Origin: Microglena sp. YARC
Lineage: Eukaryota > Chlorophyta > Chlorophyceae > Chlamydomonadales > Chlamydomonadaceae
Assembly (NCBI GenBank): GCA_022414725.1
Contig: CM039463.1
Location: forward strand, 37,470,816-37,534,815
Reading direction: 5' to 3'
Length of the DNA: 64,000 nucleotides
Made by a program: the position numbers and the translations under genes. The notes beneath the pieces are model-generated. The model did not search any database. It was not told where the DNA came from and was given only the letters and a program-made list of their open reading frames with translations. The number at the start of each line of letters is the position of its first letter. Position 1 is the first letter of the stretch. Shown here piece by piece: positions 10,528 to 62,337 of this stretch.

Positions 10528-12198
10528 CTAATCACCACCTCCTGACGTACCACTCCCATCGCCACCCCCGCCGCCGCCGCCGCCGCCCTTTGACCTCTTC
10601 CTCTTCTTCTTTTTAGCAGCTCCACTCTCCGTCTGGCCACCAGATACAGCTGCGGGTGCAGCAGCAACAGTAGCAGTAGCAGCAGGAACTGTAGTGGCAG
10701 GACCATCTCCTGCTACTTTTTGAACCTGCAGAAAATTGCAGAAATCGCAGAAATTTGACCGGACGGAGATGTGATTGTGTGGGGCTGCAGCAGCAACTGT
10801 AGCAATAGTAGCAGGAGCTGCAGTGGCAGGACCATCTGCTGCTACTTTTCGAACCTGCAGAAATGTGCAGAAATTTGATAGGACGGAGATGAGATTATAT
10901 GGGGTATCTGCACAAACAAACCTGGCAATACATAAAGATATCTGCCTACATTAAACTAACCTGGTAGCTTTCCCTAGGATATTTTCCTGGTTTCGTGCAA
11001 CTAGAATGAATGAATGAATGATATATATCATATGCTTCAGCGGGCTTAAAAAATAAAATGAATAGTATATATTGTAGGATGCAGGGTACTTCCATTGACC
11101 AAATTGGCCAGCGCTTTAGCGAACTTGAAACAAAAACAACTGCGCTTTGTAGTGCAAAAAGCGCAAAAATTGCTTGCTGCGCCCACAAGAGGTTGCAAAA
11201 AACTGCGCGAAACGCGCAGTAGGCTCAAAAAGGCAGCGCGCCAGCGCGCAAAAGCGCGTGCTTGGAAATACCCCTGGAGCAGAGCTGAGCTGAGCTAAGC
11301 TGCCCAACCTTGTATGTTATAGTCCAGGGGTAGGCCAAATAGGCTTAAGGGACTTGCCCAACCATGATAGGAAGGGCTTAAAAAGAAAAAGCATTAGCTG
11401 AGATGAAGCAGAGATGAGCTGAGATGAGCTAAGCTGCTCAATCTTACAAACAAGACAGGCAGTAAAAAAGACAAGCGATGATGAGCTGAACCCCAACAAA
11501 TAGTAAACGATGGGGGCCTGGAATTTGTGCTATGCAGATTATTGAACTCCAATGTAAATGAGATACGTGGTTTGTTTCATGGTTGGCCCCAGTGCAAGCA
11601 TACGGGCTGGCCCCCTCAACCTCACGCCTCGTAATCAGGCGTACTATTTGTTTAATTTTATTTATCAGGGGGTCACTGCATGCAGCCTACCTTTTTGTTT
11701 TTAAGCCCTTCCTATCACAGTTGGTAAAGTCCCTTTAGCTTATTTGGCCCACCCCTGGACTGTAACATACATACATTACTAGAGGGCCACTGTGTGCTGC
11801 CTACCTTTTTCTCCGTCGTTTTTTTAGCATCAGGCTGTGGCTTCTTAGCTTTCTTCTTCATGGACATAGGGTTGGGTCCCTGAGGAAACCAAAGAGCAGT
11901 AATTGGTTGGTGGGCTGGTGTGTGAGTGAGGGGAAAGGGGGGAGGGGGTTGGTTGGTTGGTTGGTAGGGTGGGCTGGTGGGTTGGTGGGTTGGTGGGCTG
12001 GTGTGTTTGGGGGGGAGGGGGGGGGCTGGTTGGTTGGATGGATGGTTGGTTGGTTGGTTGTTGGTTGGTTGGTTGGTTGGTTGGTTGGTTGGTTGGTTGG
12101 TTGGTTGGTTGGTTGGTTGGTTGGTTGGTTGGTTGGTTGGTATGTAGGTAGGTTGGTTGGTTGGTTGGTGGGCTGGTGGGTTGGTGAGTAAGTGTTTG

Positions 12199-12229
<31 letters not shown>

Positions 12230-15200
12230 TGTGTGTGTGTGTGTGTGTGGTGGTGGTGGGGGGTGGGGGTGGGGGGTGGGGGGCTTGGTTGGTTGGATGG
12301 TGAAATATCTTTCTTCTTCATGGACATGGGGTTGGGTCCTGAGGTAAACAAAGAGCAGTAGTTGGTTGGTAAGCTGGTGGGCGTGTGTGATGGGTGAGGG
12401 GGTTGGTTGGTTGGTTGGTTGGTTGGTTGGTTGGTTGGTTGGTTGGTTGGTTGGGTGGGTGGGTGGGTTTGTGTTTGTGGATCGGTGAGGGGGTTGGCTG
12501 GTTGGTTGGTTGGTTGGCTGACAGTTGGTTGGTGGGCTGGGGTGTGTGGGGTGGGGTGGGGGTGGGGAGGCTGGTGGGCTGGTGGGCTGGTGGGGTGTGT
12601 GTGGGAGGGTGAGGGGTCGGTTGTTTGTTTGTTTGGTTTGGTTGGCTGGTTGGTTGGTTGGTTGGTGGGCTGGTGGGCGTGTGTGTGTGGGGGGGTGAAA
12701 GTGGGTGGGTGGGTGGGTGGGTGAAGGGGTTGGTTGGTTGGTTGGTTGGTTGGTTGGTTGGTTGGTTGGTTGGTCGGATAGTGAGATTTGGTGAGTGAGT
12801 CCGAGAGCCAGTCAGAAAGGTATTTAGTTTGTTGATGATTACTGTTTATTTGTATGATTTATATTTTTATTATTATTTATTTATTGCTTATGATTTAGTC
12901 TGAGAGCCAGCCAGATAGGTCTTAAGTTTGTTGATGATTTAGTAAGTTTGGTAAGGCTATTCAGTGCCACCATTATCGTCTGTATCACAATGTTAAGCTA
13001 ACCCTACCTTTGCAACGTTGTGGGTAGCCAGCTAGGTGTGTAGTTAGTTGATGATTTAGTAAGTTTAGCTATTCAGTGCCACCATTATCGTCTGTATCGC
13101 AATGTAAAGTTAACCTTACCTTTGCAACGTTGTGGGTAGCCAGCTAGGTGTGTAGTTAGTTGATGATTTACTTAGTTTGGCTATTCAGTGCCACCATCTT
13201 ACACTGCATTAGAATCAGGGTACTTCAATTGACCAAATTGGCCAGCGCTTGAGCGCACTTGAAGAAACAAAACTGCGCTTTGTAGTGCAAACACCACACA
13301 AAATGCTTGCTGCGCCCACAGGGGGTTGCAAAAAACTGCGCGAAACGCGCAGTGGGGCTCAAAAAGGCAGCGCGCCAGCACGCAAAAGCGCGCGCTTGGA
13401 AGTAACGTGATTATAATGTGAAGAGAAACCAACCTTGGCAAAGTTGTTGGTAGCCAGCTTGGTATGTAGTTAGTTGATGATTTAGTTAGTTTAGCTACCG
13501 GTATTCAGTGCAAACAGTTTCCTCTGTATTATAATTATAATGTAAAGTGAAAGCTACCTTGGCAAAGTTGCGACGGATGCGAACGCTGGTTGTGAGTTGA
13601 TGATTTAGTTAGTTTGGCTATTCAGTGCCAACATTTTAATCTGCATTTTAATGTGAAGCGAAACCGACCTTGGCAAAGTTACGACGGAAGCGAACGTTGG
13701 TTGTCAGTTTTGGGCGCAGCTGCTCCAGATCCTTGAGAGCTGCACTCTCGCGCTCATGCTTTGGCAAAGCCATGCTGTCATCTTCTACCTGAGATTGGTG
13801 GGAGAGTGGGAGAGTGGGTGGGTGGGAGGGTGAGTAGGTGCGTGAGTGGGTGGGTGGGTGAGTGGGTGCGAGAGTGGGTGGGTGGGCACTTCGGTGGGAG
13901 GGTGAGTGGGTGCGTGAGTGGGTGAGTGGGTGAGTGGGTGAGTGGGTGGGAGCGTGGGTGGGTGCATGAGTGGGTGAGTGGGTGAGTGGGTGCGTGAGTG
14001 GGTGGGTGGGCACGTGGGTGGAGGGTGAGTGGGTGCGTGAGTGGGTGGGTGGGTGAGAGCGTGGGTGGGTGCATGAGTGGGTGGTGGGTGAGTGGGTGCG
14101 TGAGTGGGTGGGTGGGCACGTGGGTGGGAGGGTGAGAAGGTGCATGAGTGGGTGGGTGGGTGGGAGCGTGGGTGGGTGCATGAGTGGGTGGGTGGGTGAG
14201 CGGGTGCGAGAGTGGGTGGGTGCGAGAGTGGGTGGTGGGCACGTGGGTGGAGGGTGAGTGGGTGCGTGAGTGGGTGAGTGGGTGGTTGCGAGAGTGGGTG
14301 GGAGAGTAATGGGGGGGGTGGGTGGGGGTGGGGAGTAGGTGCGTGAGTTTGTGAGCGGGTGGGTGAACAGGTGGTAGGGAGAGTGAGAAGGAGGGTGAGT
14401 AGGTGAATGGGTGGGAGAGTGGGTGGGAGAGTGAGTAGGTGCGTGAGTGGGAGAGTGGGTGGGAGAGTGGGTGGGTGGGTGGGTGGTTGTGAGAGTGGGT
14501 GCGTGAGTAGGTGCGTGAGTGAGAGGTTTGGTGGGTGGGAAGGTGAGTAGGTGCGTGCGTGGGTGGGTGGGTGGTTGTGAGAGTGGGTGCGTGAGTAGGT
14601 GCGTGAGTGAGAGGTATGGTGGGTGGGAGGGTGAGTAGGTGCGTGCGTGGTGGGTGGGTGGTTGTGAGAGTGGGTGCGTGAGTAGGTGCGTGAGTGAGAG
14701 GTTTGGTGGGTGGGAGGGTGAGTAGGTGCGCGCGTGTGTGGGTGGGTGGTTGTGAGAGTGGGTGTGTGAGTAGGTGCGTGAGTGAGAGGTTTGGTGGGGT
14801 GGGAGGGTGAGTGGGTGCGTGCGTGGGTGGTGGGTGGTTGTGAGAGTGGGTGCGTGAGTAGGTGCGTGAGTGACAGGTTTGGTGGGTGGGAGGGTGAGTA
14901 GGTGCGTGCACAGGGTGGGTGGGTGGTTGTGAGAGTGGGTGCGTGAGTAGGTGCGTGAGTGAGAGGTTTAGTGGGTGGGAGGGTGAGTAGGTGCGTGCGT
15001 GGGTGGGTGGGTGGTTGTGAGAGTGGGTGCGTGAGTAGGTGCGTGAGTGAGAGGTTTGGTGGGTGGGAGGGTGAGTAGGTGCGTGCGTGGGTGGGTGGGT
15101 GGTTGTGAGAATGGGTGCGTGAGTAGGTGCGTGAGTGAGAGGTTTGGTGGGTGGGAGGGTGAGTAGGTGCGTGCACAGGGTGGGTGGGTGGTTGTGAGAG

Positions 15201-18200
15201 TGGGTGCGTGAGTAGGTGCGTGAGTGAGAGGTTTGGTGGGTGGGAGGGTGAGTAGGTGCGTGCGTGGGTGGGTGGGTGGTTGTGAGAGTGGGTGCGTGAG
15301 TAGGTGCGTGAGTGAGAGGTTTGGTGGGTGGGAGGGTGAGTAGGTGCGTGCGTGGGTGGGTGGGTGGTTGTGAGAGTGGGTGCGTGAGTAGGTGCGTGAG
15401 TGAGAGGTTTAGTGGGTGGGAGGGTGAGTGGGTGCGTGCGTGTGTGGGTGGGTGGTTGTGAGAGTGGGTGCGTGAGTAGGTGCATGAGTGAGAGGTTTGG
15501 TGGGTGGGAGGGTGAGTAGGTGCGTGCGTGGGTGGGTGGGTGGTTGTGAGAGTGGGTGCGTGAGTAGGTGCGTGAGTGAGAGGTTTGGTGGGTGGGAGGT
15601 GAGTAGGTGCGTGCGTGGGTGGGTGGGTGGTTGTGAGAGTGGGTGCGTGAGTAGGTGCGTGAGTGAGAGGTTTGGTGGGTGGGAGGGTGAGTAGGTGCGT
15701 GCGTGGGTGGGTGGGTGGTTGTGAGAGTGGGTGCGTGAGTAGGTGCGTGAGTGAGAGGTTTAGTGGGTGGAGGGTGAGTGGGTGCGTGCGTGTGTGGGTG
15801 GGTGGTTGTGAGAGTGGGTGCGTGAGTAGGTGCGTGAGTGAGAGGTTTGGTGGGTGGGAGGGTGAGTAGGTGCGTGCGTGGGTGGGTGGGTGGTTGTGAG
15901 AGTGGGTGCGTGAGTAGGTGCGTGAGTGAGAGGTTTGGTGGGTGGGAGGGTGAGTAGGTGCGTGCACAGGGCGGGTGGGTGGTTGTGAGAGTGGGTGCGT
16001 GAGTAGGTGCGTGAGTGAGAGGTTTGGTGGGTGGGAGGGTGAGTAGGTGCGTGCACAGGGTGGGTGGTGGTTGTGAGAGTGGGTGCGTGAGTAGGTGCGT
16101 GAGTGAGAGGTTTGGTGGGTGGGAGGGTGAGTAGGTGCGTGCACAGGGTGGGTGGGTGGTTGTGAGAGTGGGTGCGTGAGTAGGTGCGTGAGTGAGAGGT
16201 TTGGTGGGTGGGAGGGTGAGTAGGTGCGTGCGTGGGTGGGTGGGTGGTTGTGAGAGTGGGTGCGTGAGTAGGTGCGTGAGTGAGAGGTTTGGTGGGTGGG
16301 AGGGTGAGTAGGTGCGTGCACAGGGTGGGTGGGTGCGCTAGTTGGTGTGCACATCGACAGTTTTGGGCGCAGCTGCTCCAGATCCTTCAGAGCTGCACTC
16401 TCGCTATCATGCTTTGGCAAAGCCATGCTGTCATCTTTGACCTGGGATTGGTGGTCGCGTGGGTGGGAGAGTGGGTGGGAGGGTGAGTAGGTGCATGAGT
16501 GGGTGGGTAATTGGGTGAGGGGGTGAGTGGGTGCGTGGGTGGCTGGGTGGGCATGTGTGTGGGAGGGTGAGTAGGTACATGAGTGGGTGGGTGGGTGGGC
16601 GCGTGGGTGGGTGGGTGCGTGAGTGGCTGGGTGGGCACGTGTATGGGAGGGTGAGTAGGTGCATGAGTGGGTGAGTGGGTGGGTGGGTGCATAAGTGGGT
16701 GCATGAGTGGGTGGGTGGGTGAGTGCCTGGGTGGGTGTTCGCAAGATTTGTTGCGCACATCGACAGTTTTGGGCGCAGCTGCTCCAGATCCTTAAGAGCT
16801 GCACTCTCGCGCTCATGCTTTGGCAAAGCCATGCTGTCATCTTCTACCTGAGATTGGTGGGAGAGTGGGAGAGTGAGTGGGAGGGTGAGAAGGTGCATGA
16901 GTGGGTGGGTGGGTGGGCGCTTGGGTGGAGGGGTGAGAAGGTGCATGAGTGGGTGGGTGGGTGGGCGCGTGGGTGGGTGGGTGAGAAGGTGCATGAGTGG
17001 GTGGATGGGTGGGCGCGTGGGTGGGTGGGTGAGAAGGTGCATGAGTGGGTGGGTGGGTGGGCGCGTGGGTGGGTGGGTGAGAAGGTGCATGAGTGGGTGG
17101 GTGGGTGGCGCGTGGGTGGGTGGGGGAGAAGGTGCATGAGTGGGTGGGTGGGTGGGCGCGTGGGTGGGAGGGTGAGAAGGTGCATGATGTTAAGGGAGTA
17201 CCACAGACCTTCCTTTCGTTTTAGAAAGGGGGTCTTCTCGAACCCCTCAGGGATTTTGTGTCTTTCGAGGTTGGGCTCCTGGTAGTGATTTGGCCATTTG
17301 GGTAGGAGGCCAGAAGGGCCTGACCGGGGGGCAGGCTCGAGATTAGAGTCTCATGGTATCGGAAGGTTTGGCAAAACAGGGTCCCACGTAGCAATCGCTA
17401 CTGGTAGCTGACAAAAAACCTTTGACGTGCACCACGGCCACCACACCATGGCCACCCAACCCACCACAGACCTTCCACCCACCCAGCCCACCCGCCATAG
17501 CCACCCCACCTGGTAGCGGAAAAAACATATCTGGAGGACCATACCTCCTTGGCAGTACTGCGTGCCATCACAGATGGAGTCTCCGAGTGCAAGCCGTTCA
17601 CACTATCACACTAGCAGGACCTTCATCCTTGGCAGTACTGCGTGCCATCACAGATGGAGTCTCCGAGTGTAAGCGGTTAACACTATCACACTATCACACT
17701 AGCAGGACCGTACCTCCTTGGCAGTACTGCGTGCCATCTCAGAGGGTGTCTCCAAGTGTAAGCCGTTAACACTATCACACTAGCAGGACCGTACCTCCTT
17801 GGCAGTACAGCGTGCCATCTCAGGGGGAGTCTCCGAGTGAAAGCCATTCACACTATCACCCTATCACTTTATCAGGACCGTACATCCTTGGCAGTACTGC
17901 GCGCCATCTTAGAGGGCGTCTCAAAGTATAAACCGTTCACACTATCACACTATCACACTAACAGGACCGTACCTCCTTGGCATTACTGCGTGCTATCTCA
18001 GGAGGAGTCACCAAGTGTAAGCCGTTCACCCTTTCACCCTATCACTCTATCAGAACCGCACCTCCTTGGCAGTACTGCGTGCCATCTCAGAGGGTGTCTC
18101 CAAGTGTAAGCCGTTCACAGTGGCGAAGATAATGGGGGTCCCAGGGATCTGTTGTGTTTGGATGGGTGGCAGGCATTTAGTTGGTTGGGGTGGGGTGGAT

Positions 18201-21200
18201 GGGGGTGGGTGGCGGGGGGCAGGCATTTAGTTGGTTGGGGTGGGGTGGATGGGGGTGGGTGGCGGGGGCAGGCATTTAGTTGGTTATGGGTGGGGTGGAT
18301 GGGGGTGGCGGGTGGGGGCGTTTGTGCTTATCTTTGTACAGGTATTGGTGTTTGTGTTTGTGTTGGTGATGACATTGGTGTCTGTGTGGGTGCTTGTTTT
18401 GGTGTTAGTGTTGGTGCTGGTGTTGGTATAGATGCATGTCAGGTAAGCGCCTGTCGCATGTCGCATGTCCCCTGTCGCATGTCAGGTGAGCATTTGTCGC
18501 ATGTTGCATGTCCCCTGTCGCATGTCGCATGTTCCCTGTCGCATGTCGCATGTCAGGTGAGCACCTGTCGCATGTCGCATGTCCCCTGCCGCATGTCAGG
18601 TGAGCACCTGCCATATGTTGCATGTCCCCTGCCGCATGTCACATGTCAGGTGAGCGCCTGTCGCATGTCGCACGTCCCCTGTCACATGTCAGGTGAGCAC
18701 CTGTCACATGTCGCACGTCTCCTGTCACATTTTGCATGATTGTTTCCCGACGACGCGTCGCCAGTGCGTTTCAATTATGTCTTTGCTTGGCAACACATGG
18801 GTTTGGTGCTGCCCCCCGACCCCCTCAGGCTCCGCGCTTCGCTCTACGATGGCTGCGATGGCTACGAAATAATCCCATGTCCAGGCTTCAGTAGCCCAAG
18901 TAGCTTCTCAACCTAGCCTACAGAAATATAAAATAGAGAACTTGCCCCTTATTCGAGCTGACACCCTAAACCCTAAACCATAAACACACCTTCTGATAGT
19001 TTCAACTTACTCCCACCACCACTGCAAGTTTCAACTAACTCCCACCACCACTGCAAGTTTCAACTAAATCCCACCACCACTGCAAGTTTCAACTAACTCC
19101 CACCACCACTGCAAGTTTTTTCATCTAACTCCCACCACCACTGCAAGTTTTTTTCAACTAACTCCCACCACCACTGCAAGTGTTTTCGACTAACTCCCAC
19201 CACCACTGTAAGTTTCAACTTACTCCCACCACCACTGCAAGTTTCAACTAACTCCCACCACCACTGCAAGTTTTTTCATCTAACTCCCACCACCACTGCA
19301 AGTGTTTTCAACTAACTTCCACCACCACTGCAAGTTTCAACAAACTCCCACTCTCACCCGCCTCCAGCTTAAACCACCTCATCCCCATTGAAATCCAAGC
19401 GCCTCAAACAGCCATGTACCATCACCACGACCCACCACCACCACCTCCCACCACCTCCACCACCACCACCACACCACATCCCACCATCACCACCACCACC
19501 ACCTCCTACTACCACCACTACCTCCCACCACCACCACCACCCACCACCACCACCACCACACACCACCACCACCACGCACCACCCACCTTTCCCAAGCTCT
19601 GACGGAGTGCCTTGTCTTGAGTTGCTACCCACCAGTGGCCTCCGTTGTCCTTTCCTGCAACAGAGGCAGTTCAAAATTTAAATAATCAATTTTTAAAATT
19701 CAAATTGAAAATTTAAAATTCAAATTGAAAATTGCCAAACCTTGCCACTCGAGTGTAGGAGAAGGATCCTTTCTGTTCGTATGCACTGAGGAAGGTTACG
19801 GTGGGATTTGTTTCGCAGACCACCACTACAGCTGAGCTCGGACTACTGCTCAACGGAAGCAGGCCGTACTTTTTATTTTTTGTTTATTACATGGTCCTGT
19901 TTTTTGTCTATGCAGCGTTGCCTGCGACGCTAAAAATGGCGGAGAGTGATCGCGAGGGAGCGACAGGTGGCAACGGAAGCGAGTTAGTTACGAGGCTGTT
20001 GGCTGACGTGTCGGGCGTCATCACGGTCAGATGGATGGATGGATGGTCGGACGGACAAATGGGTAACACTGGGGGCTCCCGCCTCCCAGAAGGGGGGGCT
20101 CCGCCAAAAAACAGTGTACAAGTGGACGAGTCCCTTAAGCCTATTTGGCCTACTCCTGGACTGCAACATACATACAGTGTACATGGTCTATCAATAAATT
20201 TTAACTATATTGTAGAATTAAATGATCACTGTAGCACGTACTCAGGGCCCCCGTTGGTAATACGATTTTTGGGGGGTCAGTTCATCAGTTTTTTTTTCTT
20301 TTCAAGCCCTTCTTACTAAGGTAAGTTCCTTCGGGCAAGTCCCTTAAGCCTATTTGGCCTACCTTTGGACTGTAACATACATACATGGTTGATCAAACTT
20401 TAGGCTGCTCACCATCTGCTAGCCGAATAGTCATGGGTAGCAGAACACTTGATGACCACAAATTGATGCCCAAGTCCTCTCACCGTTTTGCTCAGCCAAG
20501 CACTCAGCAGGGTGGACCCATGTGGAACTGGGGTACTAGGCTAGTGATTTTATTTTCAGTGATATATTGCATAAACAATTGATGACCACAAATTGATGCC
20601 CAAGTCCTCTCACCGTTTTGCTCAGCCAAGCACTCAGCAGGGTGGACCCATGTGGAACTGGGGTACGAGGCTAGTGATTTTATTTTCAGTGATATATTGC
20701 ATAACAATTGATGACCACAAATTGATGCCCAAGTCCTCTCACCGTTTTGCTCAGCCAAGCACTCAGCAGGATGGACCCACGTGGAACTGGGGTACGAGGC
20801 TCGGGATTTTTATTTTCAGTGATATATTGCATAAACAATTGATGACCACAAATTGATACCCACGTCCTCTCACCGTTTTGCTCAGCCAAGCACTGAGCAG
20901 GGTGGACCCATGTGAAACTGGGGTACTAGGCTCGGGATTTTTACTTTCAGTGATTTATAGCTACTAGCGATCAGACCCATTGAAGCAATGCGGCTGAATA
21001 TCTAGAACCACGAATTGATACCTAGACCTTCTCACCGATTGCCTCAGTCAAGCACTCGTGTGCAATTTAGTATTGCGGCTGCATACCTACAACCACACAT
21101 TGCTGCTCAGATCTTATCACCGATTTGCTCAGTCAAGCACTCATGTGCAATTGAGCAATGCGGCTGAATATCTAGAACTACACATTGATGCCCTGATATT

Positions 21201-24200
21201 CTCACCGATAACCTCAGTCAAGCAATTGTGTGCGGGCTCCGCCTTGTTTTCATGTCCCCACTTGTGATGGTCAAGCTAGTGGGAGCTTATCATAGCACCA
21301 CTATGAAATGGAGTAATGCATTGGGTTGTCTAGAAGCACACATTGATGCCCACATCTTGAGATATTATCACCGATTAGCTCAGTCAAGCTCTCGTGTACA
21401 ATTGAGTAATGCGGCTGAATATCTAGAACCACACATTGATGCCCAGATCTTATCACCGATTTGCTCAGTCAAGCACTCGTGTACAATTGAGTAATGCGGC
21501 TGAATATGTAGAACCACACATTGCTGCCCAGATCTTATCACCGATTTGCTCAGTCAAGCACTCGTGTACAATTGAGTAATGCGGCTGAATATCTAGAACC
21601 ACACATTGCTGCCCAGATCTTATCACCGATTTGCTCAGTCAAGCACTCGTGTACAATTGAGTAATGCGGCTGAATATCTAGAACCACACATTGCTGCCCA
21701 GATCTTATCACCGATTTGCTCAGTCAAGCACTCGTGTACAATTGAGTAATGCGGCTGAATATCTAGAACCACACATTGCTGCCCAGATCTTATCACGATT
21801 TGCTCAGTCAAGCACTCGTGTACAATTGAGTAATGCGGCTGAATATCTAGAACCACACATTGCTGCCCAGATCTTATCACCGATTTGCTCAGTCAAGCAC
21901 TCGTGTACAATTGAGTAATGCGGCTGAATATCTAGAACCACACATTGCTGCCCAGATCTTATCACCGATTTGCTCAGTCAAGCACTCGTGTACAATTGAG
22001 TAATGCGGCTGAATATCTAGAACCACACATTGCTGCCCAGATCTTATCACCGATTTGCTCAGTCAAGCACTCGTGTACAATTGAGTAATGCGGCTGAATA
22101 TCTAGAACCACACATTGCTGCCCAGATCTTATCACCGATTTGCTCAGTCAAGCACTCGTGTACAATTGAGTAATGCGGCTGAATATCTAGAACCACACAT
22201 TGCTGCCCAGATCTTATCACCGATTTGCTCAGTCAAGCACTCGTGTACAATTGAGTAATGCGGCTGAATATCTAGAACCACACATTGCTGCCCAGATCTT
22301 ATCACCGATTTGCTCAGTCAAGCACTCGTGTACAATTGAGTAATGCGGCTGAATATCTAGAACCACACATTGCTGCCCAGATCTTATCACCGATTTGCTC
22401 AGTCAAGCACTCGTGTACAATTGAGTAATGCGGCTGAATATCTAGAACCACACATTGCTGCCCAGATCTTATCACCGATTTGCTCAGTCAAGCACTCGTG
22501 TACAATTGAGTAATGCGGCTGAATATCTAGAACCACACATTGCTGCCCAGATCTTATCACCGATTTGCTCAGTCAAGCACTCGTGTACAATTGAGTAATG
22601 CGGCTGAATATCTAGAACCACACATTGCTGCCCAGATCTTATCACCGATTTGCTCAGTCAAGCACTCGTGTACAATTGAGTAATGCGGCTGAATATCTAG
22701 AACCACACATTGCTGCCCAGATCTTATCACCGATTTGCTCAGTCAAGCACTCGTGTACAATTGAGTAATGCGGCTGAATATCTAGAACCACACATTGCTG
22801 CCCAGATCTTATCACCGATTTGCTCAGTCAAGCACTCGTGTACAATTGAGTAATGCGGCTGAATATCTAGAACCACACATTGCTGCCCAGATCTTATCAC
22901 CGATTTGCTCAGTCAAGCACTCGTGTACAATTGAGTAATGCGGCTGAATATCTAGAACCACACATTGCTGCCCAGATCTTATCACCGATTTGCTCAGTCA
23001 AGCACTCGTGTACAATTGAGTAATGCGGCTGAATATCTAGAACCACACATTGCTGCCCAGATCTTATCACCGATTTGCTCAGTCAAGCACTCGTGTACAA
23101 TTGAGTAATGCGGCTGAATATCTAGAACCACACATTGCTGCCCAGATCTTATCACCGATTTGCTCAGTCAAGCACTCGTGTACAATTGAGTAATGCGGCT
23201 GAATATCTAGAACCACACATTGCTGCCCAGATCTTATCACCGATTTGCTCAGTCAAGCACTCGTGTACAATTGAGTAAAGCGGCTGAATATCTAGAACCA
23301 CACATTGCTGCCCAGATCTTATCACCGATTTGCTCAGTCAAGCACTCGTGTACAATTGAGTAATGCGGCTGAATATCTAGAACCACACATTGATGCCCTG
23401 TTATTCCCACCGATTTGCTCAGTCAAGCACTCGTGTACAATTGAGTAATGCGGCTGAATATCTAGAACCACACATTGCTGCCCAGATCTTATCACCGATT
23501 TGCTCAGTCAAGCACTCATGTGCAATGGAGCAATGCAGCTGCATATCTAGAACCACAAATTGATGCCCTGTTATTCTCACCGATTTGCTCAGTCAAGCAC
23601 TCGTGTACAATTGAGTAATGCGGCTGAATATCTAGAACCACACATTGCTGCCCAGATCTGATCACCAATTTGCTCAGTCAAGCACTCATGTGCAATTGAG
23701 CAATGCAGCTGCATATCTAGAACCACAAATTGCTGCCCTGTTATTCTCACCGATTTGCTCAGTCAAGCACTCGTGTACAATTGAGTAATGCGGCTGAATA
23801 TCTAGAACCACACATTGCTGCCCAGATCTTATCACCGATTTGCTCAGTCAAGCACTCATGTGCAATTGAGCAATGCGGCTGCATATCTAGAACCACAAAT
23901 TGATGCCCTGTTATTCTCACCGATTTGCTCAGTCAAGCACTCGTGTACAATTGAGTAATGCGGCTGAATATCTAGAACCACACATTCCTGCCCAGATCTG
24001 ATCACCGATTTGCTCAGTCAAGCACTCATGTGCAATTGAGTAATGCGGCTGCATATCTAGAACCACAAATTGATGCCCTGTTATTCTCACCGATTTGCTC
24101 AGTCAAGCACTCGTGTACAATTGAGTAATGCGGCTGAATATCTAAAACCACACATTGCTGCCCAGATCTTATCACCGATTTGCTCAGTCAAGCACTCATG

Positions 24201-27200
24201 TGCAATTGAGCAATGCGGCTGCATATCTAGAACCACACATTGATGCCCTGTTATTCTCACCGATTTGCTCAGTCAAGCACTCGTGCGCAATTGAGTCATG
24301 CGGCTGAACATCTAGAACCACACATTGCTGCCCAGATCTGCTCCCGATTTGCTCAGCCAAGCACTTGTGTGCAACTGAGTAATGCGGCTGAATATGTAGA
24401 ACAAACACATTGATGCCCACATCTTGACATGTTATCACCAATATGCTCAGTCAAGCACTCGCGTGCAATTGAGTAATGCGGCTGAATATCTAGAACCACA
24501 CATTGCTGCCCAGATCTGATCATTGATGTGCTCAACCAACCACTCGTGTGCAATTGAGTAATGCGGCTGCATATCTAGAACCACACATCGATGCCCTGAT
24601 ATTCTCACCGATAACCTCAGTCAAGCACTCGTGTGCGGGCTCGGCCTTGTTTTCATGTCCGCACTTGTGAAGGTCGAGCTTGTGAGAGGCAGTGGCAGCC
24701 TCCTTGAACTCAGAGCCTAGGCCTTTCAGCTCTTGTGTAACACACCTAGTCACGTAGAGCTTGCACTTGCATCCCAGCAGGCGCGATATGTGGTTGTCCA
24801 GATCCTTCAAGCTGCATTAAAACAGGCGTAAGGTTTTGAAAAAGGTGTTGGGTGGAGTGGGGTGATGGATGCGACAAACCTGGTCACATACAGCTTGCAC
24901 TTGCATCCCAGCAGGCGCGATATGTGGTTGTCCAGATCCTTCAAGCTGCATTAAAACAGGCGTTAGGTTTTGAAAAAGGTGTTGGGTGGAGTGGGGTGAT
25001 GGATGTGACACACCTGGCCACGTACAGCTTGCACTTGCATCCCAGCAGGCGCGATATGTGGTTGTCCAGATCCTTCAAGCTGCATTAAAACAGGCGCAGG
25101 GTTATGAAAAAGGTGTTGGGTGGAGTGGGGTGATGGCTGTGACACACCTGGCCACATACAGCTTGCACTTGTAATGCAGCAGGCGCGATATGTGGTTTTC
25201 CAGGCCCATTTATCATCGGTAGCTGTTGGTAGGCATGATAAAGGTAATGATAACGCCTGGTGGGGCGTGGTGTTAAGGGAGCCCGTCGTACGCGGGTAGG
25301 GAGCGGTCTCCTACATCAACTGGACAAGCTACCATCGCGGTTGACGACCTGCAACGCCAAGAGCGACCGAAGGGGGAGTCGAACCCCCGACTCTTCGTTC
25401 CTTAGCAATCTGGTCTACCACTAGACCATTGTAATCGCTAAAGAGGCTGGTAGGCATGATATTATAAAGGGGTTAGACAAAGGTATTTGGTTGAGTGATG
25501 TGTGGTTGTCCAGGTCCTTTTTTCATTGGTAGCTGTTGGTAGGCATCATATTGTATAGGGATTAGACGCAGGTATTTGGTGGAGTGATGTGCGGTTGTCC
25601 AGGTGCTTAAGGCTGCATACAAACAGGCGCTGGGTTTTGAAAAAGGTGTCGGGTGGAGTGGGTGATGGATGTGACACGGCTGGTAACATACACCTTGCAC
25701 GTGTAACCCAGCAGGCGTGATATGTAGGGACGGGCATATCATATGATGTTGACCAAAGGTGAGTATGATATCATATGATATCATACAAATTACATCATAT
25801 GATATTGTATATACATGGTGATTTTAGCCTAGTCAGACTGCCGGTATCACATGATGTCATATGATATCATATTGCCGTCCGCTAGAGAAACATGTTTGTC
25901 TAGGCAACAGGGTACTACTTCTCGCCAAATTGGTCAGCGCTTAGAGCGCACAAACGTCAAATTGGTCAATTGCAAAAAACGCAAAATCTGCGCGCTGTGC
26001 CCACAGGGGGTTGAAAAAACTGCGCAAAACGCGCAGAGGGGCTCAAAAAGGGAGCGCGGCACCGCGCTGCCGAGCGCGCTTAGTAATACCCTGCTAGGCA
26101 ATTTTCCCCCTTGGTAGGCATGAGATTAATGCAAAGTAATTATAACACCTGGTGGGGCGTGGTATTAAGGGAGCCCTGTCTTACGGCGGTACAGAACGGG
26201 CTGCTACCACCTGAAGCCACTAGAACCTGGGCAGTGCTACCACGGCGGTTGACAGCGACCGCGAACACGTAGGGAACACTTAAGCGCACACGTAGGGATT
26301 CAACTCTGCACCTTCATGTAATTAACGAGCTCTATTATTGAGCCCTTTGTCGAACGTGATTCAAACAATCAATATATTCAAGTTATTCAAGTTATTCAAG
26401 AAGTTCAAGTTATTCAAGATATTCAAGTTCTTCAAGTTATTCAAGTTATTCAAGTTATTCAAGTTATTCAAGTTATTCAAGTTATTCAACTTCTTCAAGT
26501 TCTTCAAGTTCTTCAAGTTATTCAAGTTCTTCAAGTTCTTCAAGTTCTTCAAGTTATTCAAGTTCTTCAAGTTCTTCAAGTTCTTCAAGTTCTTCAAGTT
26601 ATTCAAGTGATTCAAGTTCTTCAAGTTATTCAAGTTCTTCAAGTTATTCAAGTTCTTCAAGTTATCCAAGTTATCCAAGTTATTCAAGTTATTCAAGTTA
26701 TTCAAGTTATTCAAGTTATTCAAGTTATTCAAGTTCTTCAAGTTCTTCAAGATATTCAAGAAGTTCAAGTTCAAAAATTCAAGTTTTTCAAGATATTCAA
26801 GTTCTTCAAGTTATTCCAGAAGTTCAAATTATTCAAGTTATTCAAGACATTCAAGTTATTCAAGATATTCAAGTTATTCAAGACATTCAAGTCGTTCAAA
26901 ATATTCAAGATACTCATAATATTCAAGAAAGTCAAGATAGTCAAGAAATTCAAGATGTTCATAATATTCAGGGAAGTCAAGATAGTCAAGATAGTCAAGA
27001 TTTTCAAGATATTTCTAGACTGTCAGGGTGGGTTATGAATCACATACAAAACACAAGCCGAACAAGTCCCACACGCGTCGCAAGGGACGAGGAAAATTGG
27101 CGTGGAGTGTTAGCAAGCAGGGCGACTGGTGGCACCAGAATCGAGTGCAGCGGATTGAAAGCAGGGCCAGGGGCCAGCAAGGCCCAGGGTTTAAGACAGG

Positions 27201-34270: not shown

Positions 34271-34299
34271 GTGAGACCTGCTGTTATCTTGTAATGTAT

Positions 34300-34680
34300 A
34301 AAATACTATTTTTAGGTTTCTATGAAGATGTAGCTGCCACCAGTGGAGATAGCCACGAGGTGAGGCCAACTGTTGTCTCTTCAATATATCATATTATAAT
34401 ATACTAGATAAAATAATCATCTTCTTGGTTCTCTATGATAATGGTGCTGACACCAGTGGAGATAGCCAAGAGGTGAGGCTTGCTGTATTTTGTAATATGT
34501 CAAATCATATTCTTAGGTCTATATAATGATGGATCTGCAACCAGTAGAGATAGCCAAGAGGTGAGGCCTACTGTTGTTTTTTTGATATATCAAATTGCAG
34601 TATACTACATAAAATAATTATCTTCTTGGGTCTCTATGGTAATGGAGCTGACACCAGTGGAGATAGCCAAGAGGTGAGGT
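34300..34680 (+). repeat. Tandem copies of exon 3 edge (membrane protein gene)
   Basis: Four diverged copies ending near 34360, 34470, 34560 and 34673, each resembling CTTGGGTCTCTATGATGAT, then GCTGCAACCAGTGGAGATA and a GAGGTGAGG donor. They repeat the LGLYDDTAATSGD end of exon 3 with its splice site, followed by an AATATATCAAATTATA stub. Confidence 0.85.
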
Positions 34681-37015: not shown

Positions 37016-37634
37016 TCGCCACTTTGCTTGGATCTGAGCAAGGAGAGAGGCTCTGCAGTCCCTATATTATTTGGCTTGAAATGTGTCGTGCAGATATGGA
37101 GGTCATACCATGGATCACCATCCAGTAGATCTTGACCCCCCTGCTGGTGAGCACCATACGGGGCCAAGGCAAGCAGGTGTTGAAGTGCTTTACTTGTAGC
37201 GGGGAGAGAAGCTCTGAAGTCTCCAGAGAAGTTAGGTTAAAACTTGAGCTGCAGATATGGATGGGGAGCAGTTATGGTGGTGGATGTGGCTGTCCAGATG
37301 CATAGATGTGGTAGATGCCGATGTGGTGGTTGTGGCGGATGTTGAGGAGGTGGGGAGGTGTAGGTGCAGGTGGTGGGGGTGCTGATGTAGGTGGTGGGGG
37401 TGCAGGTGTAGGTGGGGGTGGGGATAGTGGAGGTGGTGTGGTGAATGAGTGGACGTGGATCTGAATGTGAATATGTGGAGCTTCAGAATAGGTGGTAGCC
37501 TGCGCACGCATCGCTCCCAATACCAGGCGCCTGTGTGATCTGACACAATTTAAAAAACGCCTTAGTGAAATATCTCTGCCAGTGACGTCGACATGGAGTG
37601 ATGGCATCTCGACAGTGCCTGTCTTCAAAACTTT

Positions 37635-37900
37635 GCATTGGGTCGGCTTGGGGCTAGCTAGAAATGTAAGCTTTGCTGGAAGTGGGTTCTGCACACGAAT
37701 ACGCGCGAGGGGGTGGGGAGCGTGCGCGTTGCATGCACCATGCGCCCGCAAATCGTATCAGGCATATTTGCATGGGGTCGGCTCGGGGCTTATTATAAGT
37801 GGAAGCTATTCTGGAAGTGGGTTCTGCACACGAATACGTGCAAGGGGGTGGAGAGCGTGCGCGTTGCTTGCTCCATGCGCCCGCATGCGCCTGGAAATCA
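37635..37900. repeat. 135 bp tandem duplication upstream of R2
   Basis: Two copies, 37635-37769 and 37770-37900, sharing GGGTCGGCT, GGAAGTGGGTTCTGCACACG and GAGCGTGCGCGTTGC. They lie 150-420 bases before the R2 start codon and may be part of its promoter or 5' leader. Confidence 0.85.
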
Positions 37901-38055
37901 AACCAGAGTAGGGCTGCGCAACCGAACCCCAACCACTCCGAGTTCGTTTGAAAACTTGAAATTTCGAAGATAAATTCGCGCGACAGGTTTCACAGCATAG
38001 TTCGACTTCGCCCATTACCACAGACGTACCAACGAGACAGAACTTGAACTTTACC

Positions 38056-41000: not shown

Positions 41001-43106
41001 GTCAATTCAATTATAGTCATTAAAATCAAGTCAATCAAAGTCACATACAGCCACATTAGCGGACAACAATTTCCACTCTGTCTGCAGTGGACGTGCTGCA
41101 CCCTTTCCACAGGTTCCCACAAACACCTTGCTGATTCCACCTTGTTGCTGATTCTACTGTCTACTGTCCACCTTGGTTGTCCACCTGTTTCTATCCACCT
41201 TGTTATTGATTCTACTGTCTACTTTCCACCTTGGTTGTCCACCTTGGTATTGATTATACTGTCTACTGACCACCTTGTGGTCCACCTGTTTCTGTCCACC
41301 TTGTTGCTGATTCTACTGCAGTGCATGCCCGGCTGTGCCCCATGTGCAGTGCTCTACCAGCGAAGCATGCAATGATATTTGTAGGCCTGCCTAACAACAT
41401 AGCATGTTCTTAGGCAGCAAATCAATTTTCCGCCTCCCCTCTTTTTCCTTTTTTCCGCCTTCCCTTCTTTCTTTTTCGTATCTGAAGCTTGCCATACCTC
41501 ACCTTTCTCTATAGCTCTGAGAGCTTTGGTGAGCGCCTGGTGGCCTTTGCTGCTGTTGAGGGAATCTTCTTCTCTGGAAGCTTCTGCTCCGTATTCTGGC
41601 TGAAGAAGCGCGGACTCATGCCTGGACTCACCTTCTCCAACGAGCTCATCTCCAGGGATGAGGGACTCCACTGCGACTTTGCCTGCCTGCTCTACAGGTA
41701 CAGTTGCAAGCATAGCTTTTCTTTCATGACTAGTAGTTTTTCTTTTCAGCTAGTAGCAGTAGCTTCAGGCAGCTCCCTGAGCCAGCCACTGGGCTCAGCC
41801 TCAAGATCCCAACAGTATTGGACAGATGACTTTTCCAGATGCATTATGTTGCTATAGGTTGGGATGGGAAGTAAGCTAGGGGCTGCCTAGAAGCTGCTGC
41901 TTGTAGCGCACAAGAAAAAATATGGTTGCAAGCACTCATGTGTGAATTGCTGATGCTTGTTCTGTGGTTACAGCATCTGTAAGTGGGTGGGTCCTGGCTT
42001 CTTGCTTGTCCTTTCCCCTGACCTATCTTCTGCTGGGCAACCTGGTTCCCAATAGCCCCTTGGTTCATTTTTGCTTATTCTGTTCTGCATCCACTTTGGC
42101 TTATTCTGCTCTGTAACCTGTCCAGTACAGTACCTTCCCTGCACTGTCAAGTACTGTATCTGCCCAGTACAGTACATGCCCGGTACAGTCCAGTTCCCGT
42201 CTAGCACAGTAGGTACTGTACTAGACGGTAGTACAGTCACTGTTCAGGTAGTACCTGGGGCGGGGCTAGAGCAAACTTACGGCGACCATGGCTAGAGCAA
42301 TTTTGGAGGTACCATGGCTAAAGCAGTCTTGGAGCTACCGTGGCCAAGGCCGAGGCACAGCTATGACCTGGCATGTCCAAAGATCTCTCCATGCAGGTCC
42401 ATTAGGAATCTAGCTTTGTCAAATGCCATGACTCAGTAAGCGCCACATGTGTCCCTTCTCATTCCACATCTATGTCTCAACCGCTGAATGACTTACTTAC
42501 TTCCTCTGCAGGTGCAGCCATGAACATGCACCTGATCCTGCACCTGCCCTACCTTGTTGAGCCATGTGATCACCAGATCTTCTGTCTTTTGCTCTACATT
42601 TCCAACGCTGTTTTCAATTTCTGCCTTACTGACTGTCTGACTGACTTGGTCTTGAGAATGGCAGTGAGAATTAATATCTGTCAATCCACTGAAATCCTAG
42701 CAGCCTGGCATGCAACAAGTCTGCCATGCACCCAACTGACATCTTCCCTGTCCCCCACTACAGCATGCTGACTACCAAGCTAGACAAGGCCCGATTGTCT
42801 TCCATCATTGAGGAGGCAGTCACTATCGAGAAGGAGTTTGTGACTGAATCACTTCCGGTTGATCTCATTGGTATGAACAGTAAGCTCATGACGCAGTACA
42901 TTGAGTTCGTAGCGGACCGGCTGCTGATTGCCCTTTGTAATGACAAGGTGTACAACACGGTCAACCCTTTTGATTGGATGGAGATCATTTCATTGCAAGG
43001 GAAGACCAACTTCTTTGAGAAGCGAGTAGGGGAGTACCAGAAGTCTGGTGTCATGGCTGGCCTCAACAGCAAGTTGCACCAGTTCAACATGGATGAGGAC
43101 TTCTAG
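38056..43106 (+). CDS. RNR2: Ribonucleoside-diphosphate reductase small subunit (R2), 8 exons
   Basis: R2 holds the di-iron centre and tyrosyl radical of class Ia ribonucleotide reductase, which with the R1 subunit makes dNTPs in the cytosol. Exons: 38056-38245, 38340-38381, 38877-38932, 39014-39118, 39703-39751, 40743-40869, 41515-41697 and 42764-43106, all GT-AG and in phase, 1095 bases, 364 residues. All metal ligands are present: Asp112 (FAASDG), Glu143 and His146 (IENIHS), Glu205 (VEGIFF), Glu239 and His242 (DEGLHC), with the radical Tyr150 (SEMYS). [32 protein letters not shown] and ADRLL are typical of eukaryotic R2, and the tail FNMDEDF matches the R1-binding C-terminal peptide. The start is the ATG at ACCATGG; an upstream in-frame TTG is not used. 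Introns are far shorter (81-1066 bp) than in UTP23. Confidence 0.97.
39590..39680. repeat. CTAACACTAC-type tandem repeat in R2 intron 4
   Basis: Degenerate 9-11 bp units (CCTAACACTAC, CTTAATACTGC, CCTAGCACTAC) close to the acceptor of exon 5. Confidence 0.75.
39855..40060 (-). repeat. Dispersed repeat family A, copy 4 (in R2 intron 5)
   Basis: The reverse complement of the family A landmarks, including GGGGGGCGGGAGC, CGTTGCCACCTGTCGTTCCG and GCCATCGACGCTGCATATGA. It lies within intron 5 of the R2 gene and adds about 200 bp. Confidence 0.6.
40270..40730. repeat. Tandem repeat in R2 intron 5
   Basis: Three to five diverged copies of a unit containing CTGACCTCTCAAC, TCTCTGCATCATG, GACAATGCAAGCCTCCTCAC and TAAATTCTGTTA. 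The last copy ends just before the TTGCATGCAG acceptor of exon 6, so the amplified sequence is the acceptor side of the intron, without exon bases. Confidence 0.8.
41125..41320. repeat. CCACCTTGTTGCTGATTCTACTG repeat in R2 intron 6
   Basis: Four diverged copies of a unit with GCTGATTCTACTGTCTACTG and CACCTTGGTTGTCCACC. Confidence 0.85.
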
Positions 43107-43400
43107 AGCTGCGTTTAAAACAGGTGTCATTGCTGTCATCAACAGAGCTGGTGTCATGGCTGGCCTGCGTTTATAGCTGGTGTCAAGGCTGGTCTGCGGT
43201 TAGAGCTGGTGTCATTGCTGGCATCAACAGAGCTGGTGTCAAGGCTGGCCTGCGGTTAGAGCTGGTGTCATTGCTGGCATCACCAGAGCTGGTGTCATGG
43301 CTGACCTGCGTTCATAGCTGGTGTCATGGCTGTCATCAACAGAGCTGGTGTCATGGCCGACCTGCAGTTATAGCTGGCATCATCAGCAAGTTGCACCAGT
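43107..43400 (+). repeat. Tandem copies of the R2 terminal coding end
   Basis: Directly after the R2 stop codon, a unit of about 60 bp derived from the last exon (GGTGTCATGGCTGGCCTCAA, encoding GVMAGLN) recurs about seven times. A later fragment at 43380-43412 repeats AGCAAGTTGCACCAGTTCAA, then AATGGATGAG, encoding SKLHQFKMDE. A further trace, TTTCTAGAGCTGCGT, is at 43613-43627. These copies are out of the coding frame and fall in the 3' untranslated region or beyond. Confidence 0.85.
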
Positions 43401-43412
43401 TCAAAATGGATG

Positions 43413-53946: not shown

Positions 53947-53987
<41 letters not shown>

Positions 53988-56868
53988 GGGGGGGGGAGGC
54001 ATCCTCACCAAAGTCGATCCACAATGCTTGGATTAGAGGGACAGATTAATGAGAATCATCGAACCATGCTGCACTATGGACAGTGTGCGTTGACATCTTG
54101 ACCCTTGGTGTGTAGTGAGACATGTGTAAGATGGGGATAGGCGGTGGGGTGGCCTTGGAGGGTAAGATAGGTGGTGGTGTGGGGAGTGGTGTGTGGCGGT
54201 GTGTCATACACCAAAGTTATTCCATCCATACTCGGCTTGGGGAAGACAGACGATGAGATCATCGACAACATGCATGCGACCTTAAGAGGCATGTGCCCTT
54301 GACACTCTTCACCCTAGGTATGTGTGTGGGGAGGGTGTGTGTTGGGTGGGTAAAGAGGTGGTGGTGTGTGGGAGTGGAGGTGTCGCCTGTTGGGTGTCGG
54401 TCACGATCGAGGGGGGGCGTTTATCACCTAAGTCATACCATTATGCTTGGTTAGGGGAGACAGACGATGAGACTATCGACACCATTGCTGGACCTTAAGG
54501 ACGTGGGCGTTGACATCTTCAAACCCTAGGTGTGTGTGAGTGGTGTGGGTGGGTGGGGGGACTGGGGACAAGAGAGGTGGTGGTGGTGGGGAGTGTGTGT
54601 GGGTGTGTCTACACCAAGTCATCCATCATTGGCTTGGATTGGGGGAAACAGGACGATGTGATCATCCGACACCATGCTGACCTGACAGTGGGCGGTTGAC
54701 ATCTCCACCGCTAGTGTGTGTGTGTGTGTGTGGTGTGTGGTGTGTGTGTGTGTGGTGGGGGGGGGGGGGGGGCATCCTCACCAAGCTCCACAATGCTTGG
54801 ATTAGAGAGACAGATTATGAGTATCATCGACACCATGGCTTGACCTATTAGGAACAGTGCAGTGGCGTATGACAGTCTTGACCCTAGGTGTGTGTGAGTG
54901 TGTAGATGGGATGGGGTGGGGGTGGCCTTGGGGTGAAGATAGTGTGGAGTGGGGAGTGGTGTGTGGGTGTGTCTATCACCAAGAGTTATCCATCATGCTC
55001 GGCTTGGAGAAGACAGACGATGAGATCATCGACAGACCATGCGGGACCTTAAGGCGATGTGCGTTGACATCGTTCACCCTATGGTATGTGCAATGTGGGG
55101 GGAGGGGGTGTGTGTGGGTGGGTGAAAGAGGTGGTGGTGGTGTGGGGAGTGGGAGGTGGGGTGGGAGGGGGGGGCGGGCGTTTTCACCAAAATCATCCAT
55201 CATGCTTGGTTAGGGGAGACAGACGACGATGAGACTAATCGACATCTCCACGACCTTCAAGGACGTGGCGTTGACATCTTCAACCTAGGTGTGTGTGAGA
55301 TGTGGGTAGGCGAATGTTAGACTGGGGGACACAGAGAGGTGAGTGAGTGGTGGGGTGTGTGTGGTGATGTCTACACCAAATCATCACATTCATGTTGGGA
55401 TTGGGGGAAAACAGACTAGATTGAATCAATACGAACACCATGCTGGACCTAAGACGTGGGGCGTTGGACAATCTCCACCTAGGTGGTTGTGTGTGTGTGT
55501 TGGTGTGTGGTGGTGTGTGGGGGGGGGGGGGGGGGGGCATTCCTCACCAAAGTCAATCCACAGCTTGGATTAGAGGAGACAGATATGAGATCAAACGACA
55601 TCATGCTTGACCTATAGGACATGGTGCGTTGAACATCTTGACCCTAGGTGTGTTTTGAGTTGATAGATGGGATGGGTGGGGGTGGCCTGGGTAAGATAGG
55701 TGGTGTGTGGGGAGATGGTGTTGGGTGTTCTACACCAAGTTATCCATTCATGCTTCGGCTTGGGAAAGACAGACGATGAATAATCGAACCATGCTGGAAC
55801 CTTTAAGGGCATGTGCGGTTGACATCTTCACCCTAGGTATGTTTGGGGGAGGGTGTGTGTGGGGGTGCAAAGAGGTGGTGTGGTTGGAGTGGGAGGTGGG
55901 GTGGAGGGGGGCGTGTTTCACCAAATCATCCATCATCCGGGTTAGGGGAGACAGACATAGACTATCAGACACCATGCTGGACCTTTCAGGGACGTGGCGT
56001 TGACATCTTCAAACCTAGGTGTGTGTGAGTGTGTGGCGGTGGGTGGGGGGACTGGGACAAGAAGATGGTTGGTGGTGGGGATGGTGTGTGGCTGTTACTA
56101 CACAAGTCACCATCATGCTTGATTGGGGGAAACAGCACGATGTATCCATCGGACCACCATGCTGACCTGAAGGACGGTGGGCGTTGGACATCTTCCACCT
56201 AGGTGGTTGTGACTTGTGTGTGTTGTGTGTGTGTTGTGGGGGGGGGGGGGGGGGGGCACGCTTCACCAAGTCATCCACAATGCTTGGATTAGAGGAGACC
56301 AAGGATTATTGAGATCCATTCGACACCCATGGCGTTGACCTATTAGGACATGTGCTTTACATCTTGACCCTAGTGTTTGAGTGTGTAGATGGGGATGGTG
56401 GTGGGGTGGCCTTGGGGTAAGATAGGTGGTGTGTGGGCGAGTGTTGTGCGTTGTCTACACCAAGGATCCATCATGCTCGGCTTGGGAAAGACAGACGATT
56501 GAATCAATCGACACCATGCTGACCTTACAGCGGCATGTGCGTGACATTCTTCACCCTAGGTATGTGTTGGGGGAGGTGTGTGTGTGGTGAAAGAGTGGTG
56601 GTGGTGTGGGGATGGAGTGGGGTGGTGAGGGGGGGCCTTTTCACCAAAATCATCCATCATGCTTGGTTAGGGGAGACAGACGATGAGACTATCGACACCA
56701 TGCGATGGACCTTAAGGACGTGGCGTTGACAAATCTTGCAACCGAGGTGTGGCTGAGTTGTGGGGGAGGGAACTGGGGGATAAGATAGGTGGTGGTGGTG
56801 GGGAGTGGTTGTGGGCTGTGGTCTACACCAAGTCATCCATCATGCTTGGATGGGGGATCTCTCTCCTT
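52931..56868 (+). repeat. Higher-order tandem array of the lipoyl synthase exon 4 tail
   Basis: About twenty copies of the exon 4 end (encoding roughly [20 protein letters not shown], then [13 protein letters not shown], then a CCTAG-GTGTGTG donor), each followed by a G/GT-rich stub. Four unit types recur in fixed order, making a higher-order unit of about 770 bp; type A, marked by a poly-G run and ACAATGCTTGGATTAGAGG, begins near 53205, 53990, 54755, 55520 and 56235. Some unit types carry stop codons (for example GACCTATAGGAC), so they are not coding. Indel noise rises sharply after about 53800. The array runs into the assembly gap. Confidence 0.92.
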
Positions 56869-62094: not shown

Positions 62095-62337
62095 CTGGGG
62101 CAATTTACTAGGCCCCCAGTCACTTAGGGGGCGGATTGGTTTCTAATTGGTTTGGGGGGGGGGGAAGGATTCACCTCACAAACAATCAATGGGGAGACAG
62201 CAATGGTACGGTAGACATGGTGAAACACATTTTGTTACATCGGTGCAATGGACTTGCAGGTGAAGTTGTACAATATCCAAAGCATGGGATATCTAAAGCA
62301 AGAAAAGGGATGACACATCTCGGTCCACCCCAAGAAT

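Follow-up and report, generated by a model that had tools for sequence, protein, structure and literature searches.

Introns of the green alga Microglena sp. YARC carry imperfect tandem copies of the edges of their own exons. We analysed a window of 64,000 nt (G000:C2:37470816-37534815, contig CM039463.1 of assembly GCA_022414725.1; 49% GC) holding genes for UTP23, a putative membrane protein, ribonucleotide reductase small subunit (R2) and lipoyl synthase, together with other loci of the same assembly, which comprises 568 Mb in 2,390 contigs (C1 to C5 measure 195, 95, 63, 58 and 46 Mb). Each copy is imperfect, in direct orientation and close to its source, and comprises an exon edge, its splice site and a stub of intron. 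Copies occur on several chromosomes; in the ten modelled genes they are confined to the intron side of splice edges. We give a probability of about 0.78 to the explanation that this is sequence ('exon') stuttering, a pervasive direct local tandem duplication followed by expansion and divergence. The whole study covers ten modelled genes (51 introns) and twelve predicted exons in one assembly, and four of the ten genes come from the window that raised the question.

Junction-spanning copies stand close to 15 of the 39 exon edges in the window (9 of 20 donors, 6 of 19 acceptors). Each edge was represented by 40 bases of exon plus 20 of intron, and copies spanning the junction were sought at E <= 0.01; first and last exons have approximate outer limits, and up to 120 bp was counted as exon there in later analyses. 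Donor copies all lay downstream and acceptor copies all upstream, with no exon-side copy at any of the 39 edges. UTP23 exons 2, 3, 5 and 6 have 5, 44, 6 and 2 donor copies, lipoyl synthase exons 2, 3 and 4 have 7, 2 and 12, and two exons of the putative membrane-protein gene have 3 and 4; acceptor copies number 3, 2, 1 and 1 at UTP23 exons 3, 6, 7 and 8, and 2 and 3 at lipoyl synthase exons 2 and 4. The 44 copies of the UTP23 exon 3 donor edge span offsets of 85 to 4,125 bp. A first-pass annotation of the window had named these edges, and every one proved to have junction-spanning copies in the adjoining intron; it had also reported repeats of the terminal coding end of R2 beyond the stop codon, where we found one 51-bp copy (88%) and nine shorter pieces. 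Because this coding end is copied beyond a stop codon, a splice site is not needed for the copying of a coding edge. Two of its generalisations did not survive. Arrays were said to occupy the introns of every gene, and R2 has a junction copy at none of its 14 splice edges. The copies nearest the exon were said to be the most faithful, and among the 18 edges with at least three copies in the ten genes eight trend so, seven run the opposite way and three show no trend (mean Spearman rho of faithfulness with distance, -0.08).

Copying is dense, local and absent from shuffled sequence. We screened the 51 introns at 42.1 bits, the threshold used in the chicken study discussed below, with doublet-shuffled introns as controls. 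Copies of a neighbouring exon were carried by 29 of the 51 (30 of 51 have junction copies by the edge test), giving 106 proximal matches in the real introns and none in five shuffles. No proximal match at this threshold lay on the opposite strand, and 85 of the 106 originated no more than 1 nt from the border of the exon. At the same threshold the copied exon part had a median of 64 bp (range 26-114) and an exon-intron pair had at most 7 copies; in the nearest copy, homology took in a median of 45 bp of exon. GC was 0.55 in exons and 0.50 in introns. Distal matches numbered 23, every one of them between two CCT1-like paralogues.

The pattern recurs at loci chosen without regard to repeats. A Pfam search of the same genome for the CCT/Cpn60 family gave 64 matches, and six of these genes (L031-L036), picked by family and not by repeats, were analysed. 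Exon-edge copies occur in five of the six, with intron-side copies at 31 of 71 edges (15 of 36 donors, 16 of 35 acceptors) and exon-side copies at none of the 71; ten of these edges are approximate, the AG or GT with the best score close to where a Pfam match ends having been taken as the splice site. Two chaperonin open frames (G000:C6:13962293-13963762 and G000:C5:11283081-11284901) are apparently intronless among their intron-rich relatives. Arbitrary loci were sampled with an exon finder. The 929 codons from window genes on which it was trained included nine stops, so that training was partly out of frame; it nevertheless recovered most window exons. Run on 22 arbitrarily placed 10-kb pieces (L009-L030), it returned 25 candidates, and the 12 exons scoring at least 28, from six loci, were used. 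Intron-side copies were present at 8 of their 24 edges, one of which had exon-side copies too (L020:6159-6267, a 36-nt coding repeat at the predicted exon start). Pfam supported only L015 and L016 among the six loci, neither of which has copies, and L020, L026, L027 and L028 gave no Pfam match over the cut-off. Loci with copies lie on C1, C2, C3 and C5, while C4 is represented only through the predicted exon in L027, without Pfam confirmation. As far as sampled, these results (8 of 10 genes, 29 of 51 introns and exons at arbitrary loci) bear out the first-pass proposal of a genome-wide process.

Comparison of paralogues ties the copies to the genes that hold them. The CCT1-like paralogues L031 and L034 lie on different chromosomes, and their paralogous exons are 77 to 84% identical. 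All 22 copies compared in L031 were closer to its own exons than to the L034 exons; of the 16 in L034, 13 were closer to its own exons and three to those of L031. Since the copies resemble their own exon more closely than the paralogue's, they are local, and most arrays would have arisen or been homogenised after the L031/L034 split. The two genes differ in the array content of their introns and in at least two introns, each having one that the other lacks. Both differing introns (L031:7498-9304 and L034:2914-4595) carry exon-edge copies on both sides, and in L034 the exons flanking the L031 intron are contiguous. Fully 0.92 of the length of L031:7498-9304 is a donor-side stretch followed by an acceptor-side stretch: the exon end and six copies, then two copies and the exon start.

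Such introns invite the thought that the copies record intron gain through a duplication crossing an intron-exon boundary. There is a precedent in potato, where, in the part of the report drawn on here, a tandem duplication in an RdRp gene crosses an exon-intron boundary and creates a new intron (PMC4974935). The alga differs in that existing introns grow, often by many copies, with no need for a new one to form. Its copies join an exon edge to a stub of pre-existing intron, number up to 44 and have a median of 45 bp of exon homology, and a copy resembling a spliced exon-exon junction turned up in only 1 of 51 introns, all of which makes intron gain a very improbable account of the arrays even with the differing CCT introns in its favour. 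The same count, one such copy in 51 introns, led us to reject copying from spliced-mRNA-like sequence as the mechanism.

The arrangement closely resembles exon stuttering as described on chicken dot chromosomes (Hron et al. 2026, PMC12954441). In the sections of that study on which we draw, imperfect tandem copies of an exon's lateral part, donor or acceptor included, run through the intron beside it, exons remain intact, copies are local and purely intronic arrays lie alongside, and the alga is alike in each respect (PMC12954441). Imperfect direct repeats fill its introns, the repeated block includes exon edge and splice site in 29 of 51 introns, intact exons have copies only in the intron, and their origin is strictly local. 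The copied exon part has a median of 36 (range 20-187) in chicken against 64 (range 26-114) in the alga, and up to 44 copies of one edge occur in both, counted in the alga by the looser E <= 0.01 test (PMC12954441). Density differs: 29 of 51 sampled introns in the alga against 190 of 5,572 dot-chromosome introns (3.4%) in chicken (PMC12954441). In the same sections the authors link stuttering to GC-rich, tiny chromosomes, demonstrate intron length variation between individuals and offer gerbil genes as the sole other hint (PMC12954441). The bird-type link to GC-rich genes on small chromosomes is not seen in the alga, whose contigs here measure 46 to 195 Mb. Ordinary intronic minisatellites are also imperfect tandems, with units of tens to hundreds of bp; the alga departs from them in that its units regularly take in coding sequence with a splice site and in that 62% of its intron 40-mers are duplicated.

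Exon-edge copies sit within a general background of tandem duplication. The duplicated 40-mers, counted when the same intron region contained another copy at a distance of 40 bp or more, and the tandem arrays that cover on average 36% of the 22 arbitrarily placed pieces mark the duplication process as a general one. Tandem Repeats Finder (TRF) detected 88 arrays with periods of 20-457 in the 51 introns. Two of the arbitrary pieces, L009 and L019, consist of tandem repeats throughout. The median length of the sampled introns is 1,087 bp; medians for coding-sequence introns in six Chlamydomonas/Volvox relatives are 198-343 bp in the figures taken from that source (PMC8226300). Introns with junction copies are longer than the others (median 1,314 versus 749 bp; Mann-Whitney p = 0.0024), and 42% of intron bases fall between a junction and the farthest of its copies, in agreement with the earlier suggestion that the process lengthens introns.

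We propose a process largely blind to splicing, in which blocks of tens to about 200 bp would duplicate in tandem throughout non-coding DNA. A duplication straddling a donor would leave the original exon and donor upstream, and one straddling an acceptor would leave the last acceptor and exon downstream, so that either would be tolerated and kept as intron; duplications wholly within exons would be purged by selection. The engine may be slippage during replication, or template switching, with unequal exchange as a later stage. With units near 170 bp at edges and introns that shrink to medians of about 580 to 770 bp when every array is collapsed to one unit, many blocks would catch an exon edge.

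Several observations weigh against this account. Two of the ten genes lack exon-edge copies, R2 and L036, the latter being the only gene modelled on C4, so that rates differ between genes in a way that the account does not explain. In a bootstrap comparison with neighbouring dinucleotides, the acceptor AG is kept in 0.916 of copies versus 0.791 for neighbouring exon dinucleotides (20 edges, 44 copies), with an interval for the difference of 0.014 to 0.228 that barely excludes zero. Coverage by repeats in collapsed sequence is higher at junctions in 44 of 45 contrasts, where a splice-blind process predicts no excess.

Acceptor retention is what would be expected if copies were kept as spare splice sites, extra donors or acceptors that aid or diversify splicing. 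The EukProt model of UTP23 (P0001) also fits this idea, having an extra exon-6-like segment (it is without exon 7). Yet the donor GT is not kept above its neighbours (0.838 versus 0.845; 21 edges, 112 copies), the acceptor interval only just clears zero, and the offsets of the nearest copies are not clearly skewed towards multiples of three (18, 14 and 10; n = 42), so the copies are probably not kept as coding sequence; we consider selection for spare sites very unlikely. The P0001 segment has no exact match among the window copies, which tentatively suggests both that gene predictors are misled and that a different assembly contains a differing copy.

A segment from a different assembly would also speak against an artefact of misassembled or misjoined long reads, the least probable of the explanations we weighed. 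Such errors would suit the lipoyl synthase exon 4 array, indel-rich beside a gap of 1000 N, and the small frameshifts of exon 3 of that gene. They accord poorly with copies that are 73 to 100% identical to their edge, most below 97%, with units that differ between edges, unlike duplicated reads, and with the lack of the pattern in R2 and L036.

The coverage excess bears on whether splice junctions themselves seed duplications, as the first-pass annotation had supposed. Splice-site or pyrimidine-tract sequence, a step in composition, or breaks linked to transcription or splicing would then start duplications more often there. No raw excess exists: a local spanning copy was found at 310 of 600 random window positions versus 15 of 39 edges, the random positions avoiding exons of UTP23, lipoyl synthase and the membrane-protein gene with R2 exons left unmasked. 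Copies from the interior of expanded arrays dominate this null, which we judged poor for that reason and replaced with sequence collapsed to one unit per array, cross-checked by an array-count null. Collapsed coverage in the first 40 bp was 0.45 at donors and 0.52 at acceptors versus about 0.24 in deep introns, and original-unit coverage peaked at 0.48 for donors and at 0.58-0.59 for acceptors, at -60 to -40. Under the main setting coverage was expected at 14.3 of the 47 donors and 13.4 of the 46 acceptor ends and was observed at 24 (p = 0.0004) and 28 (p < 0.0001); it was also observed in 23 of 47 wholly intronic donor-side windows (14.3 expected, p = 0.001), and gene-level bootstrap intervals for the junction coverage difference exclude zero. 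The 45 contrasts come from crossing three settings with three gene sets at five positions; they are overlapping, non-independent comparisons, and their junction/interior ratios run from 0.77 to 2.91, mostly 1.5 to 2.2 and about 1.7 in most settings, with p < 0.05 in 36.

Other comparisons leave less room for seeding at junctions. With CCT genes only, the donor ratio was 1.44, 1.59 and 1.55 at 10 bp inside the intron (p = 0.035, 0.011 and 0.072) and 1.54, 1.27 and 0.77 at 30 bp (p = 0.013, 0.16 and 0.83); three of the five CCT contrasts failed to reach significance under the strictest setting, which also gave no excess in donor windows placed wholly within the intron (5 of 31 versus 6.5). Arrays touching an exon edge were as numerous as uniform placement predicts in all six TRF settings (observed/expected 14/15.3, 14/14.0, 12/12.1, 20/18.9, 19/16.9 and 17/13.8; P of at least as many, 0.18 to 0.70), and BLAST runs at donors numbered 23 versus 24.2 expected, a comparison without a P value. 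Edge arrays have long units (median 173 versus 62 bp in interior arrays), and this difference, which length-biased sampling would produce, may reconcile the coverage excess with the flat array counts. A nucleosome-size unit, considered in view of the median of 173, was rejected: interior arrays are shorter, as length-biased sampling would give.

The idea that junctions seed duplication is supported by the collapsed coverage and not by the array counts, which match uniform placement, and we regard it as unsettled. With 62% of intron sequence duplicated anyway, and a sample of 51 introns in ten genes, four from the window, we hold junction seeding to be unlikely, though the least unlikely of the alternatives. 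A bolder version makes junctions hot spots of tandem duplication, each repeatedly emitting copies and so driving intron growth from exon edges; the excess of about 1.7-fold is compatible with it and the array counts leave room for it, and we find it slightly more doubtful still. We conclude that a splice-blind process explains most of the pattern, to which a junction bias of up to about two-fold may add.

The gene models behind these results rest on open frames and homology. UTP23 has eight exons on the minus strand in a single open frame through TAG at 10530-10528, and its protein resembles UTP23/Fcf1 homologues. P0001, in which an Fcf1 domain was found, matches the predicted UTP23 at 82% over 96% and is identical across most of exon 6; the next-best named relatives are from the chlorophycean algae Sanguina, Chlamydomonas eustigma, Dunaliella and Haematococcus. 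R2 (PF00268) has eight exons with the frame open to the stop, and lipoyl synthase exons 1 to 4 were placed by tblastn, with the 1000-N gap at 56869-57868 downstream of the exon 4 array; the remainder of the gene may lie past it. Uncorrected long-read errors would give small frameshifts like those at 51195-51260, within a conserved exon of lipoyl synthase, and single-base indels like those that abound at 52931-56868 before the gap. The putative membrane-protein gene gave no Pfam match above the cut-off; this label and 'CCT1' are presumed names. Elsewhere in the window lie an almost perfect (ATCT)n microsatellite of 866 bp (1-866), an interspersed repeat of about 180 bp (20200-20387) with more than 30 occurrences across C1 to C5 at 82-86% identity, and a retrotransposon reverse transcriptase open reading frame (RVT_1) on the minus strand (62186-63658).

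Table 1. Exons and exon-edge copies in the window, in window coordinates. UTP23 lies on the minus strand, so the first coordinate given for exons 1 to 7 is the 3' edge, and the final exon starts at 10725.
Feature	Position	Strand	Remarks
UTP23 exon 8, terminal	10528..10725	-	stop 10530-10528; acceptor at 10725
UTP23 exon 8 acceptor-side copy	about 10815-10874	-	one copy, offset -129
UTP23 exon 7	11805..11879	-	one acceptor-side copy near 12299-12358 (offset -459, 91%)
UTP23 exon 6 donor-side copies	13414..13668	-	offsets 111, 235
UTP23 exon 6	13669..13788	-	open frame
UTP23 exon 6 start, two acceptor-side copies	16358..16850	-	offsets -2653, -3059
UTP23 exon 5 donor-side array	17535..18061	-	unit about 89 bp, 6 copies
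UTP23 exon 5	18062..18148	-	open frame
UTP23 exon 4	19587..19654	-	without junction copies; GGT-type simple repeat adjoins donor
UTP23 exon 3 donor-side array	20444..24608	-	44 copies; 85-bp unit, then 130-bp unit
UTP23 exon 3	24609..24811	-	open frame
UTP23 exon 3 acceptor-side array	24812..25203	-	134-bp unit; third copy near 25610
UTP23 exon 2 donor-side array	27574..28024	-	5 copies
UTP23 exon 2	28025..28068	-	open frame
UTP23 exon 1	29860..29940	-	without junction copies
Putative membrane-protein gene, first tested exon	32891..32942	+	edge test
Putative membrane-protein gene, donor-side array	32943..33176	+	59-bp unit, 3 copies
Putative membrane-protein gene, second tested exon	34175..34270	+	edge test
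Putative membrane-protein gene, second donor-side array	34271..34679	+	4 copies
Ribonucleotide reductase R2, 8 exons (start of first approximate)	38060..43106	+	0/14 edges with junction copy
R2 coding-end copies 3' of stop	43123..43417	+	best copy 43367-43417, 51 bp, 88%
Lipoyl synthase exon 1	45686..46152	+	donor without copies
Lipoyl synthase exon 2, two acceptor-side copies	48851..49428	+	offsets -712, -195
Lipoyl synthase exon 2	49583..49714	+	tblastn
Lipoyl synthase exon 2 donor-side array	49715..50796	+	7 copies, GT-rich spacers
Lipoyl synthase exon 3	51180..51448	+	small frameshifts, probably assembly error
Lipoyl synthase exon 3 donor-side copies	51449..51830	+	offsets 177, 352
Lipoyl synthase exon 4 acceptor-side copies	52172..52540	+	offsets -488, -319, -199
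Lipoyl synthase exon 4	52680..52930	+	tblastn
Lipoyl synthase exon 4 donor-side array	52931..56857	+	at least 12 copies, about 200 bp, indel-rich, adjoins 1000-N gap

If the arrays are read as stuttering, the phenomenon arises in organisms as distant as a bird and a green alga. Its occurrence in the alga at ordinary GC and on large chromosomes means that dot chromosomes and extreme GC are not required, and suggests that introns may grow in this way generally. Gene predictors may mistake such copies for exons, and the automatic UTP23 model seems to be a case in point. The alga, if culturable, would let the birth of arrays be followed and the role of the junction be tested.

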